Shown in pieces: positions 44,793 to 49,874 of a stretch of DNA of 64,000 bases (the stretch's first letter is position 1; every line of letters starts with the position of its first letter). Source of the DNA: Deltaproteobacteria bacterium HGW-Deltaproteobacteria-6 (GTDB taxonomy: Bacteria; Desulfobacterota; Syntrophia; Syntrophales; Smithellaceae); the NCBI GenBank assembly GCA_002840435.1, contig PHAT01000001.1, forward strand, positions 842,979 to 906,978, in the 5' to 3' direction. The notes beneath the pieces are model-generated. The model worked only from the letters and a program-made list of their open reading frames with translations, was not told the origin of the DNA and did not search any database. The position numbers and the translations under genes were made by a program.

Positions 44793-45650
44793 TTACCTCG
44801 ATAACTTAATTTCAAATACTTTAGGCCAGTATTTCCCCGTTACAAAAATACGGTCTTCTTTTGCGTCATACGCAATACCGTTGATTACATCGACCCGGGC
44901 ATTCATGGGAAGGTAAGAACGGAGGGCCGATAAATCAATCCAGCCGTTTACCCTGCCGTTTTTCGGTGAAATCCGGACTATCAAATCTTCCATATATATG
45001 TTGGCCCAGATTTCGCCTTTGATAAACTCCAATTCATTGAGTTTGCCCACCTCGGCATTACCGTCACGGACCTGGATTTTCCGAACCACTTTAAACGAAT
45101 CCGGATCATGAAACGTGATGTTCGATGAACCATTGCTCATCAGCAAATATTTGCCGTCGGAGGTTAATCCCCAACCTTCTCCGTGATATTTTATTTTTCT
45201 GATTTCCCGGAAAGACCTTGCATCATAAATCAAAACGGTTTCATTCTGCCATGTCAGTTGATAAATTTTATTTTTGAATAAAACAATCCCCTCGCAAAAA
45301 TACTCGGGAGGAATTCTGATCTCCTGCAATATTTTCCCGGTTATCACCTCTTTCCGGACAAGCGTTGATTTGTCGTTAAGTCCGGTTGATTCATAAAAAT
45401 ATCCCTGATAAAAAAACAATCCCTGCGTGAAGGCGCCGGTATCGTGGGGATATGCGTTCTTAACTTCGACAGATGCAATCGGAACTCTGGTTTTCAATAC
45501 GGTTGAAAGTTGCATCGATTGCGACAGATTGTTTCCGGCAAAAACCGGGCATGACGGAAATACAGATAGTGCAATGAAAAAAGCGATGACTGTCCACCTG
45601 AATATCTCTCTATCTTTACCGGACCTTTCACGCCATTCTTTTCGGATCAT
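44793..45650 (-). CDS. Glutaminyl-peptide cyclotransferase (exported)
   Basis: Glutamine cyclotransferase of the plant/bacterial beta-propeller type, about 285 residues. It turns N-terminal glutamine into pyroglutamate. A hydrophobic segment (about residues 18-38) is a signal peptide or anchor, so the propeller is periplasmic. Typical segments are AYPHDTGAFTQGLFFYQGYFYESTG, split here as PHDTGAFTQGL and YESTGL, then WGLTSDGKYLLMSNGSS and LNELEFIKGEIWANIY. The ATG 45650 is chosen; the frame extends to a TTG at 45695. It is divergent from the Crp/Fnr gene. Confidence 0.88.
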   Translation of the reverse strand: MIRKEWRERSGKDREIFRWTVIAFFIALSVFPSCPVFAGNNLSQSMQLSTVLKTRVPIASVEVKNAYPHDTGAFTQGLFFYQGYFYESTGLNDKSTLVRKEVITGKILQEIRIPPEYFCEGIVLFKNKIYQLTWQNETVLIYDARSFREIRKIKYHGEGWGLTSDGKYLLMSNGSSNITFHDPDSFKVVRKIQVRDGNAEVGKLNELEFIKGEIWANIYMEDLIVRISPKNGRVNGWIDLSALRSYLPMNARVDVINGIAYDAKEDRIFVTGKYWPKVFEIKLSR

Positions 45651-45755
45651 ACAATTGTTTACCTTAGTGCTGTTTGTCTTTATCGTCCTATACAATAAAT
45701 ATATTTGATAATAAAGGATTTGCTATCCAGGACCATTTCTTGTAAAAATGCAGTT

Positions 45756-46454
45756 ATGAAGTTCAGTTCTGAAGATTTTTTTAAAATTTGCAATGGCATT
45801 CCTTTTCTGGCCTGCCTGTCACATAAGGAACTGTCTGAAATTGAATCTGTCGTTATCGTTAAGAAATTTCTTAAAAATCAAGTTATTTTGCTGGAAGAAG
45901 ATGAACCCTCTTATTTTTATTTTATTATTTCCGGCAAAGTCAAAGTCATCCGATATAATGAAGCGGGTAAAGAGTTAATGCTGGCCATCCATAAAAGATA
46001 CGATTACTTCGGCGAGATGGCCATATTGGACGGCAAAACGGCTCCGGCAACCATTATTGCGATGGATAGCTGCACAATCGGCTTTATCACCAGAAGCAAT
46101 TTCATCAAACTCATTATGAGCAATGAAAAATGCCTTCAGAAACTCATTGATCTCCTTTGCTCCCGCCTTCGGGAAGCATGGACCATGTTGAACGTCTTTG
46201 GTTTTGCAGATGCCGGCGACAAAGTTCGCGCGGCTTTAAAAATATTCAGTCAAAAATTTGGAACCGTCGGAAAAAACGGTACAATGATCAATATCAAGCT
46301 CACCCATAAAGATCTGGCTAACTTCGCGGCAGTTTCCAGAGAAACAGCCAGCCGGATCATCAGTACCATGATGAAAAACGGCGAAATTGAACTGATTGAC
46401 CACAAATATTTCATTTTAAAACAATCATTTTTCAATAAAGAATCGCTTTTGTGA
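45756..46454 (+). CDS. Crp/Fnr-family transcription regulator
   Basis: A 232-residue regulator: cyclic-nucleotide-binding-like beta barrel (about 10-115), dimer helix and a winged helix-turn-helix (182-222). The recognition helix VSRETASRI (193-201) has the Arg195-Glu196...Arg200 pattern of E. coli CRP, which reads TGTGA half-sites. In the binding pocket, FGEMAILDG (85-93) is kept, but the Arg-Ser that holds the cAMP phosphate is replaced (KTAPATI). No FNR-type cysteine cluster is present. ATG 45756 is preferred over a TTG at 45705. A CRP-like palindrome overlaps its own stop codon. Confidence 0.9.
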   Translation: MKFSSEDFFKICNGIPFLACLSHKELSEIESVVIVKKFLKNQVILLEEDEPSYFYFIISGKVKVIRYNEAGKELMLAIHKRYDYFGEMAILDGKTAPATIIAMDSCTIGFITRSNFIKLIMSNEKCLQKLIDLLCSRLREAWTMLNVFGFADAGDKVRAALKIFSQKFGTVGKNGTMINIKLTHKDLANFAAVSRETASRIISTMMKNGEIELIDHKYFILKQSFFNKESLL

Positions 46455-46465
46455 TCTGTATCACA
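46450..46465. promoter_or_regulatory. CRP-type operator TGTGA-N6-TCACA
   Basis: TGTGATCTGTATCACA is a perfect CRP-consensus palindrome centred at 46457.5. It includes the stop codon (46452-46454) of the Crp/Fnr gene. The candidate -10 box GATAAT (46486-46491) predicts a start near 46498, which places the operator about 41 bases upstream of the start, the class II activator position. The target would be the three-gene unit starting at 46607. Confidence 0.75.
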
Positions 46466-46485
46466 GATTCCATTTCCATTTTCCC

Positions 46486-46491
46486 GATAAT
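46486..46491 (+). promoter_or_regulatory. -10 element of an activator-dependent promoter
   Basis: GATAAT, with no good -35 hexamer at the right distance, as expected when an activator replaces it. The leader to 46606 contains a small palindrome CAAAGG-N5-CCTTTG (46521-46537). Confidence 0.45.
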
Positions 46492-46606
46492 ATATTCACC
46501 AATAAAATTAGTCTAAATGGCAAAGGTTAATCCTTTGGATACGGGTTATTATCGTTTTCCGTCTGAATCGTTTAAGCGTTTATCTTAACAGAAAAGGAGT
46601 AAAATT

Positions 46607-46879
46607 ATGGAAAGCTTATTTCAAGGTACGATGTCGATACCTCTTTATCAAATCGTGTCTTTACTGATTATCATGACTGTTACGGCACTTTTCGGTTTTT
46701 TAAAGATGGGTTTGTTTTTAAGCTATATTTTTGTTTTTTATTGGGGTAATATGCTAAATATACGCTCGATATTTGGAAGCACCGATCCGAACGACACTAT
46801 TTTATCTTTTGCCTTCGTTGGATTCGGATTAATCATCTTCCTGCTGGCAATGTTGGGATTCGTATTAAACAAAGAATAA
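46607..46879 (+). CDS. Small membrane protein of unknown function
   Basis: A 90-residue hydrophobic protein with two or three helices: about 12-33, 34-50 and 66-88, with a short polar loop GSTDPNDT between the last two. I do not recognise a family. A strong AAAAGGAG ribosome-binding site precedes the ATG. It is first of three same-strand genes with an ExeA-like ATPase and a TPR protein (gaps 1 and 22 bases) and may be the membrane partner of the ATPase. Confidence 0.65.
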   Translation: MESLFQGTMSIPLYQIVSLLIIMTVTALFGFLKMGLFLSYIFVFYWGNMLNIRSIFGSTDPNDTILSFAFVGFGLIIFLLAMLGFVLNKE

Positions 46880-46880
46880 C

Positions 46881-48227
46881 GTGAAACATATGTATTGCGA
46901 ATACTGGAATTTACATAAGGCACCTTTTGATAATGTACCTGATCCTTCCATGTACGCTGATTGTCACGTATCCATGAAGAAAGTCATTTCCGAAACAATT
47001 TCAGCAGTTAAAGGCGCTAATGAGGCTTTTGCGGTAATTATCGGCGCAGCGGGTTCAGGGAAAACTCTATCGCTGAGAATGATCATCGACTCCCTCGAAC
47101 CGGAAAAATACAAAAGTGTAACCATTAAAAATCCGGGAATTGCGTTTGCCGAGCTCCTGAAAGAAATTATTGGTCAGATAACCGATAAAACCTGCGAAGA
47201 AAACGAAAAAACCGTCTTACTGGAAATTTTTAATCATCTTTTATTCACCGCTCATGATCACGGGCAAAAAATTGTGATTTTTATTGATGAGGCAAATGCC
47301 CTATCGCAGGCAAATCTGGAAAACCTTCGTCTTTTAACAAACATACAGGATGATCAAAGGAATCTCTTCACAATTGTCCTGGCCGGTCAAATGGATTTGG
47401 CCGAACGGCTGGAACATCCCAAACGCATTAACCTTTTTCAACGTATAAGCACTTACGGCCGGATTGATAAGCTTCCATCGGAAGAAGCCGTTAAAGCGTA
47501 CATTACAACAAGGCTCAAACTTGCCGGTGCACAAAACGACATTTTCACTGATGATTCTATCCCTGTTATATGGGAACAATCGGAACATGGCGTTCCGCGT
47601 CTTGTCAATAAGATATGTAAATTGTCCTTGAAAGCCGCCGAAGATTATGGATTTGATTATATTACATCTAATACCGTAACACTAATCTCAGAAAGATTGC
47701 ATAAGCTCGGTGAAACGGCTATCCAGCAGCGCAAACCCCGCATCCGGCCGCTTAATGCCGAAGATTCGTTCATTGTGGCGGCTGAAAATGAACCGGAAGA
47801 AGCCGTTATTACCGAAGTGGCTGCTGATAAAGACATACAAAATGAGACTGCAAAATCAGCCGTTCAAGCAACTTCTGAACTGAAACAGAAAGAAATCTCT
47901 TCTGTGCCTGAGATTCCGATTTCCTCAATTCCTGTAATAGAATCTCCACAGGAAGATTCTTCATTTAAAGATGAAAAACATCTGAGAACTGAAAATGAAA
48001 ATTATGACGAAGTCATGATTGGCGAGTATAAAATACAACTGGCAATACCCAAAGATATTTTAAGACAGGTAAAATTATTTAATCGTGCGAGCGCCAATAA
48101 GTCGGCAGGATTCTGGGCAGCTAAAATAATAAAAAATAATCCACAGTTGACCAGCTCACCACTTGCCGATCCTGTGTATATCTGGAATGAGATCAAAGAT
48201 AACATATTAAAGAAAATCGCCGTCTAG
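46881..48227 (+). CDS. ExeA/GspA-like AAA ATPase with a novel C-terminal region
   Basis: A 448-residue protein. Residues 5-275 match ExeA/GspA-type ATPases: the N-terminal YCEYWNLHKAPFDNVPDP signature, Walker A GAAGSGKT (55-62), Walker B IVIFIDEA (131-138) and a GVPRLVNKIC C-lobe motif. ExeA proteins usually help assemble the type II secretion pore with a peptidoglycan-binding domain; none is seen here. Instead an acidic, Ser/Pro-rich linker (about 285-380) leads to a 60-residue C-terminal domain (QVKLFNRASANKSAGFWAAKIIK) I do not recognise. GTG 46881 or ATG 46890 could start it. Confidence 0.8.
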   Translation: MKHMYCEYWNLHKAPFDNVPDPSMYADCHVSMKKVISETISAVKGANEAFAVIIGAAGSGKTLSLRMIIDSLEPEKYKSVTIKNPGIAFAELLKEIIGQITDKTCEENEKTVLLEIFNHLLFTAHDHGQKIVIFIDEANALSQANLENLRLLTNIQDDQRNLFTIVLAGQMDLAERLEHPKRINLFQRISTYGRIDKLPSEEAVKAYITTRLKLAGAQNDIFTDDSIPVIWEQSEHGVPRLVNKICKLSLKAAEDYGFDYITSNTVTLISERLHKLGETAIQQRKPRIRPLNAEDSFIVAAENEPEEAVITEVAADKDIQNETAKSAVQATSELKQKEISSVPEIPISSIPVIESPQEDSSFKDEKHLRTENENYDEVMIGEYKIQLAIPKDILRQVKLFNRASANKSAGFWAAKIIKNNPQLTSSPLADPVYIWNEIKDNILKKIAV

Positions 48228-48249: not shown

Positions 48250-49155
48250 ATGAATCAATCAGATAGAGATTTTATTGAAAAAAAAAGACCTAAAAAGCAG
48301 CGCGATGTTCATATCAAGGATTATGAACTTGTCATATTACATTACCAAAACCTGATTAAAAAAGGCAAGAACGCAACAGATGCCTATGTAAATATGGGGT
48401 TCATTTATCTGGATAAGGAGGATTATGAAGAAGCCTTAAAATGCTTCCTTAAAATACTTGAACTGGAACCTCAAAACCCGGAAGCATTCAATAACGTCGG
48501 TTATGTCTATGAAAAAATGAATATGTTCGATTTCGCGAAACAATCCTATGAAAAAGCGTTAGGATTAAATACTCAGGATCCGGAAGCAGTTATTAATATC
48601 GGTCATATTCTGGAACTGCAGGGAAACTACAAGGAAGCAGTTGAGCAATATTTAAAAGCGATTGAAATGAATCGGCAAAATGATTCCGCCCGCTTTTGTC
48701 TGGCCGTTTTATACGACCACCAGGATATGCATGAGGAAGCGATTGATCAATATTCAGAAATTATTCGACTTAACCCCGGACATCTCAAGGCCATGTATAA
48801 TATGGGTAGACTCTACTTTCAGCTGGGAAACTATTCTGCCGCTTTAAAGCAATTTCAAAATGTTCTGAAGCTGGATCATGACAACGCCGATGTCTGGAAC
48901 AGCGTGGGCTTGATTCATGAGGCAAACAATGATTACCCGGCTGCAATAGACTCCTATCGTAAATCTCTTGCCCTGAACCCTTTTCATGAAGATACAAACT
49001 TCAATCTGGCCAATCTGCAATATCTGACCTATCAGGACTCACCCAATCAGGTAAAGATTGCCGATATCATGCGCAGGTTGCAGTTTGTACTTTCACTGAA
49101 TCCCCGCAATCAAAAAGTGGATAAGCTTTTGTCCAAAATTCAAAAGAAGATTTAA
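48250..49155 (+). CDS. Tetratricopeptide-repeat protein
   Basis: A 301-residue protein with a basic N terminus (KKRPKKQR) and about six consecutive 34-residue TPRs from residue 42 to 248, each with the A..G.....G.Y..A...Y..A..L.P pattern, plus a weaker seventh. No signal peptide or membrane helix is visible, so it should be a cytoplasmic scaffold. It is last in the unit with the ExeA-like ATPase, and PilF/GspA-type systems use such proteins for assembly; a similar role is inference. GGAGTGG lies before the ATG. Confidence 0.85.
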   Translation: MNQSDRDFIEKKRPKKQRDVHIKDYELVILHYQNLIKKGKNATDAYVNMGFIYLDKEDYEEALKCFLKILELEPQNPEAFNNVGYVYEKMNMFDFAKQSYEKALGLNTQDPEAVINIGHILELQGNYKEAVEQYLKAIEMNRQNDSARFCLAVLYDHQDMHEEAIDQYSEIIRLNPGHLKAMYNMGRLYFQLGNYSAALKQFQNVLKLDHDNADVWNSVGLIHEANNDYPAAIDSYRKSLALNPFHEDTNFNLANLQYLTYQDSPNQVKIADIMRRLQFVLSLNPRNQKVDKLLSKIQKKI

Positions 49156-49181: not shown

Positions 49182-49874
49182 TCAAGGAAGCATTTGCTTT
49201 TTCGGCAGCGCATCGGCTGAACGTAAATAAACAGGAGCACATCCTGCCAAATCAAGCAAATCATTGCGGCGGTATTTTTCAATCGCCAGAGTTCCCACAG
49301 CTGAAGCACATACAAATTGCTGTTCCGCGGGGGCTAGTTTATTTTTGTTGGCTGAAAGGGAACCAACCACGCCGGCATATTTAATCGCACCGTCGCCCAC
49401 ATAGATCACCTGCTCTTCATAGGGATCAAGAATGCTTTGTGGATCAAGAGCTCTTGCTGCTTCCAGCTGATTCAAAATACCGTCCTGACCATACTGGTAG
49501 TATGCAAGATAAACCTGTCCGCGACCCGCATCCATCATCGAACCGATTATTTTTTCTTTTTCGTCCACATTGAGCGCCAGTGCGGCAAGGGTTGAAACAC
49601 CCGCCGCCGGTTTGCCTGTTGCCATCATCAAAGCCTTGAGGGTACTGACGCCAATGCGCAAGCCGGTAAACGACCCCGGCCCCAATGTGCAGGCAAATAA
49701 ATCAATTTCAGGCAACTTAATACCCGTCAGCCGGCAGGCCTCGTCGATGGACGGAAGAAGCACTTCTGAGTGGTTCAGTCCTTTATTGATAAGTGTATCA
49801 TATAAAACTGTTTCATCCCGCAGCAGGGATACCGAGGCTGTTTTTGAAGAAGTATCGAAAGCTAATGTCAACAT
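49182..49874 (-). CDS. tsaB: tRNA threonylcarbamoyladenosine (t6A) synthesis protein TsaB
   Basis: TsaB (230 residues) partners TsaD to transfer the threonylcarbamoyl group to A37 of ANN-decoding tRNAs. N-terminal LTLAFDTSSKTASVSLL and CTLGPGSFTGLRIG are characteristic of the ASKHA fold. It is the last gene of the uppS-cdsA-dxr-rseP-tsaB run, one base after the rseP stop, and ends 26 bases from the convergent TPR gene. Confidence 0.95.
   Translation of the reverse strand: MLTLAFDTSSKTASVSLLRDETVLYDTLINKGLNHSEVLLPSIDEACRLTGIKLPEIDLFACTLGPGSFTGLRIGVSTLKALMMATGKPAAGVSTLAALALNVDEKEKIIGSMMDAGRGQVYLAYYQYGQDGILNQLEAARALDPQSILDPYEEQVIYVGDGAIKYAGVVGSLSANKNKLAPAEQQFVCASAVGTLAIEKYRRNDLLDLAGCAPVYLRSADALPKKQMLP

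Follow-up and report, generated by a model that had tools for sequence, protein, structure and literature searches.

The palindrome TGTGATCTGTATCACA, which contains the stop codon of a Crp/Fnr-type regulator gene, is very probably the operator of that adjacent regulator; it lies at the position of a class II activator site and would drive a unit encoding a 90-aa protein, an ATPase and a TPR-repeat protein. The window, i.e. the whole 64-kb stretch of DNA analysed, is from a Syntrophales genome (G000); its relevant features are listed in the table. A regulator dimer would bind 46450-46465, centred at about -41.5 and covering the -35 region. The bound dimer would recruit RNA polymerase to a promoter whose -10 element lies at 46486-46493, and transcription from around 46499 would then read all three genes, for the 90-aa membrane protein, ExeA-like ATPase and TPR protein in turn. 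An earlier note on the window had proposed this control relation; it is supported by the co-occurrence of site and regulator, by the conserved class II distance and by the way in which the site follows the target gene.

Features of the proposed regulator, operator and target unit (window coordinates)
Feature	Coordinates	Strand	Basis or remark
Crp/Fnr-type regulator, 232 aa	45756..46454	+	PF00027, PF13545; orthologue alignment A1
Operator TGTGATCTGTATCACA	46450..46465	.	sequence; conserved among orthologues
Regulator stop TGA	46452..46454	+	operator bases 3-5, within the left half-site
-10 region: GATAAT 46486-46491 or TAATAT 46488-46493; family register 46487-46492	46486..46493	+	
Predicted transcription start	46499	+	from conserved geometry; operator centre then -41.5
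90-aa hydrophobic, probably membrane, protein; proposed first target	46607..46879	+	family A2
ExeA/GspA-like AAA ATPase	46890..48227	+	PF13401; TIGR03015 below cut-off; found behind the regulator in relatives
TPR-repeat protein, last gene of the unit	48250..49155	+	PF00515 and others; neighbour kept in G006, G009, G018, G046

The proposed operator, the regulator and its stop codon

TGTGATCTGTATCACA reads TGTGA-N6-TCACA at the place given in the earlier note. Its description there as a perfect palindrome holds for the arms (6+6 complementary bases) but not for the CTGT core. The regulator TGA was correctly placed inside the operator, as was the operator between the regulator gene and the three-gene unit: the next gene, on the same strand, starts at 46607. 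The window contains no other exact TGTGA-N6-TCACA (0.07 per 64 kb are expected from an independent-base estimate), and the whole 4.09 Mb genome no other exact TGTGAYNNNNRTCACA. Elsewhere in the genome there are 17 one-mismatch copies of TGTGAYNNNNRTCACA, compared to 8 for a reversed control pattern (approximately two-fold); in the window, matches with up to two mismatches are not enriched (14 versus a mean of 23.2 in shuffles). Statistics from this single genome are, by themselves, no more than suggestive of an operator. The site is raised above chance by its retention at the same place in orthologues and by its fixed distance to a -10-like element. Positions 6 and 11, which were not constrained by the search, are a pyrimidine and a purine in 31/31 sites (C-G in 15, T-A in 11, T-G in 4 and C-A in 1).

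The regulator starts at ATG 45756, which is common to the orthologues; TTG 45705 is a mechanical extension only. The protein falls in the Crp/Fnr superfamily, with scores above cut-off for PF00027 (82 bits), PF13545 (36.6) and PF00325 (24.3). Recognition-helix residues R195, E196 and R200 are invariant in the twelve sequences of alignment A1; they correspond to R180, E181 and R185 in CRP. The R-E-x-x-x-R residues of CRP-type TGTGA specificity are thus retained, and their fit to TGTGA supports the adjacent regulator as the reader of the site. In delta-proteobacteria, Arg180 is linked to the TGTGA signal (PMC545781).

The regulator falls outside both the CRP equivalog NF008732 (73.9 versus a cut-off of 266 bits) and Fnr (50.2 versus 228 bits). 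FNR has an N-terminal iron-sulfur cysteine cluster; the sole invariant cysteine of alignment A1 is C135, outside the N-terminus. In all twelve regulators, the R-S phosphate-binding pair of cAMP binders is replaced by A/S/T-P. Since these residues belong to the cyclic-nucleotide phosphate pocket, the signal is probably not cAMP. Sequence comparison supports a local CRP-like class II activator that is ordinary in kind. A divergent glutamine cyclotransferase gene (44793-45695, minus strand) adjoins the regulator gene in the window; by eye, it is also found there in G006, G010 and G018.

Alignment A1 was searched against 155 Syntrophales genomes. Matches that reach 270 bits number 24 and come from 23 genomes; scores then drop to 190, 179 and 148 bits. 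The 179-bit match is an incomplete gene at the end of a contig in G060, and it too reads into an exact site. The earlier note had proposed looking for the palindrome in related genomes. When all 24 stops are read, 14 carry a site with at most one mismatch (G000, G006, G009, G018, G031, G034, G037, G052, G056, G061, G073, G122, G129 and G144). Counted from the first base of the stop, these sites start anywhere from two bases before it to four bases after it. The stop overlaps the site in 13 of them, and in 12 the TGA forms operator bases 3-5. A TAG overlaps the first two operator bases in G006, while in G122 a single base separates TAA from the site.

The other ten stops have no site (G010, G046, G049, G087 with two genes, G088, G089, G091, G093 and G119). 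In G046, a one-mismatch site is found 576 nt past the stop, before the operon; the DNA between the two is repeat-like ('gagtcccgagtccagagtt', locus L010). G119 has the regulator and no site was found in its locus. G010 has no site, its 90-aa gene was not found and its ATPase is reduced to a C-terminal fragment. G052 has the site at the stop, yet the first same-strand ORF of at least 60 aa begins 616 nt past it.

Outside this group, exact sites at the stop are present in L068 (a Geobacter MAG), L108 (a Tectomicrobia MAG) and L216, and a distant paralogue, L019, has a one-mismatch site there. In L108, the 1.4 kb after the exact site contains no same-strand ORF of at least 70 aa. The background is low: 3 of 97 other Crp/Fnr loci (L068, L108, L019) have a site with at most one mismatch at the stop. 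These 97 loci are mostly more distant; they comprise 18 paralogue loci and 79 of a collection of 80 Crp/Fnr loci, a few close orthologues among the latter.

The proposed 90-aa target gene and relocated sites

The 90-aa protein has no Pfam or NCBIfam match. Its family (A2) has 45 copies in 41 of the 155 Syntrophales genomes, and positions -250 to -30 upstream of every copy were scanned for sites with zero or one mismatch. A site precedes the gene in 14/16 genomes with the regulator and 3/25 without it (Fisher p = 1.9e-6, ignoring kinship); seven of the 14 site-bearing genomes are also seeds of the 90-aa family alignment, and have the 90-aa gene beside the regulator. Counted by copy, the figures are 14/19 and 3/26.

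The most telling evidence for a link between site and regulator comes from six genomes of another family, f16 (G049, G087, G088, G089, G091 and G093). None of these has a site at the regulator stop; instead, the site precedes the 90-aa gene on another contig, at 104-131 nt (five exact, one with one mismatch). Three f16 loci were read further and contain no ATPase or TPR homologue near the 90-aa gene.

There are a number of exceptions. G052 and G144 have a site at the regulator and none at the 90-aa homologue. The second 90-aa copies in G000 and G060 also lack a site. Conversely, no regulator was detected in G090, which has an exact site before the 90-aa gene, in G092, which has a one-mismatch site, or in G084, which has two one-mismatch matches. 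The G092 assembly is 82% complete and its genus-mate G093 has the regulator. In G090, locus L202 (C492:5500-7700) retains the operator and the 90-aa gene with no regulator upstream; this reflects either gene loss or an assembly fault.

It is unlikely that the class II site, although real, serves a different Crp/Fnr paralogue in the cell and not the adjacent gene's product. G000 contains eight Crp/Fnr matches, TGTGA-N6-TCACA is a generic CRP-type motif, and G090 and G092 keep the site without a detected orthologue. Across the 41 genomes, however, the site tracks this particular orthologue, including the six cases in which the two are on separate contigs.

Promoter geometry and the remaining readings

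The earlier note had pointed to a -10-like GATAAT at 46486-46491. The hexamer is present; the register shared by the family is one base off, and TAATAT at 46488-46493 is an alternative, so that the window's best hexamers lie one base either side of the family register. A -10 matrix (E. coli frequencies) was slid downstream of sites aligned on the palindrome. The first set (n=17) contains the 14 stop sites together with L010, L017 and L018; the second (n=14) was found later.

In the first set, the score peaks for a hexamer whose first base is the 22nd past the palindrome (offset 21), which corresponds to -12 to -7 when the operator centre is at -41.5. The second set has its peak there too, and scores higher. 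In neither set is the peak reached at any offset by any of 1000 shuffles, and this is also true of one-per-cluster subsets of 12 and 9 sites. The peak also holds when the f16 family and its relatives are removed (n=7; 0/1000 shuffles). Two sets of sites, collected separately, therefore keep the class II distance predicted by the earlier note, with the window deviating by one base. The -10-like element reads, for instance, TATAAT in L216 and TAGAAT in L202, and in five f16 genomes it reads TAGATT.

Five weaker or late-found sites (L019, L062, L074 and two matches in L189) were left out of both sets, as were the L215 upstream site and further one-mismatch matches inside loci. Taken separately, the five show no class II peak; when they are included in the second set (n=19), the score falls and the peak stays where it was (0/1000 shuffles). 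A shared extension, GACAATTCTTCT, follows some sites and was set aside; it is exact in five genomes, and the remaining matches, with one mismatch, look like background.

The geometry also bears on whether the palindrome is a repressor or autogenous site and not an activator site, which is quite unlikely. Crp/Fnr proteins can repress, and the site is at the end of the regulator's own gene. Against this, the -10-like element keeps the class II distance in both sets, the -10 sequences are imperfect, and in the window there is no site between the regulator start and 45600.

Fusion of the operator with the stop codon may be explained by shared descent and compact spacing. Little credence is given to a function for the overlap itself, whereby the bound dimer would activate the unit and also stall polymerase arriving from the regulator gene, with the mRNA ending before the stop. 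Such a function is favoured by the retention of the overlap in 13 of the 14 orthologues that have a stop site and by its recurrence in the more distant L019, L108 and L216; it is disfavoured by the six f16 genomes without a site at the regulator stop. A functional overlap would amount to a built-in negative feedback in which activating the target also shuts off the regulator.

The inverted repeat could also act as RNA, in the form of a hairpin or terminator that ends the regulator mRNA; this is very improbable. It would form a 6-bp stem with a 4-base loop, and positions 6 and 11 are complementary in 26/31 sites. However, no terminator-like site is found in 45600-46700, 8/31 sites lack Watson-Crick pairing at the outer pair 1/16, the -10-like element keeps a constant distance, and sites also occur away from the regulator gene. 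A chance match, for which the expected 0.07 exact matches per 64 kb and the unenriched two-mismatch matches in the window leave some room, is practically dismissed by the same position in 14/24 orthologues compared to 3/97 other Crp/Fnr loci.

Downstream genes, wider occurrence and known systems

The three genes of the proposed unit are on the regulator's strand, and the next gene, at 49182, is convergent. ATG 46890 fits the ATPase homologues as a start; GTG 46881 is also in frame. Assignment of this ATPase to the XrtA/PEP-CTERM system was rejected: TIGR03015 scores 142.4 versus a cut-off of 324.5 bits, and G000 has no exosortase (PF09721) match. In relatives, the regulator is followed by the full unit in G006, by the ATPase and TPR genes in G009, G018 and G046, and by the ATPase gene in G144.

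Elsewhere, the gene behind the site is prepilin-like (L054), or encodes a prepilin peptidase (L056), a spore-coat-U protein (L057), a DUF4382 protein (L017) or a fervidolysin-like protein (L068). These gene names give hints of a possible role in surface structures or secretion. Judged by eye from translations, CRP-type sites are also present before a prepilin peptidase and a prepilin-like gene (L019, near 2171) and before a prepilin-like gene in L236 (G090:C402). In L101 and L103, an exact TGTGA-N6-TCACA is found about 75 nt upstream of distant Crp/Fnr matches, possibly for autoregulation.

The regulator is matched at 1e-45 in 14 of 395 genomes across the phylum. The class II pattern as a whole has 37 matches in the 155 genomes (one site is counted twice) versus 6 for the reversed control. 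By hand tally, it occurs in 16/24 regulator-bearing genomes and 13/131 others. A large regulon was considered and rejected, as the pattern has one further match only in G000. This match (L002; G000:C4:291718-291760, minus strand) precedes a PilZ-like gene and a response-regulator gene; among 11 genomes searched, the PilZ-like gene is found in G000 only.

For an uncharacterised Crp/Fnr subfamily of the Syntrophales, the comparison predicts an operator, the geometry of its promoter and a target. Natural controls are available in the form of sites that have moved or been lost and of target homologues that have none, and the operator-in-stop layout offers a simple way to ask whether the end of a coding sequence and an operator place limits on one another. 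A narrow literature search found no account of the regulator or of an operator overlapping its regulator's stop; this does not imply absence in print.

At class II promoters, E. coli CRP binds TGTGA-N6-TCACA centred about 41.5 bases before the start, using R-E-x-x-x-R. The system described here is similar in motif, in operator-centre distance (about 41.5) and in the R-E-x-x-x-R residues. It differs in that the regulator is local, beside its target, has A/S/T-P for R-S in the phosphate pocket, and has one other class II-pattern match only in its genome. Among solved structures, the best Crp-type match over both domains is 7pza, a putative cAMP-binding protein-catabolite gene activator (E 6.9e-20, residues 16-215); at the aligned place, 7pza has P-R-S-A and the regulator T-A-P-A. 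Another delta-proteobacterial Crp/Fnr protein, HcpR of Desulfovibrio, has the predicted consensus TTGTGANNNNNNTCACAA, which is tied there to Arg180 (PMC545781); the likeness lies in the consensus alone. HcpR is associated with hcp-frdX and sulfate-reduction genes (PMC545781), whereas here the neighbouring genes are those for the small membrane protein, the ATPase and the TPR protein.
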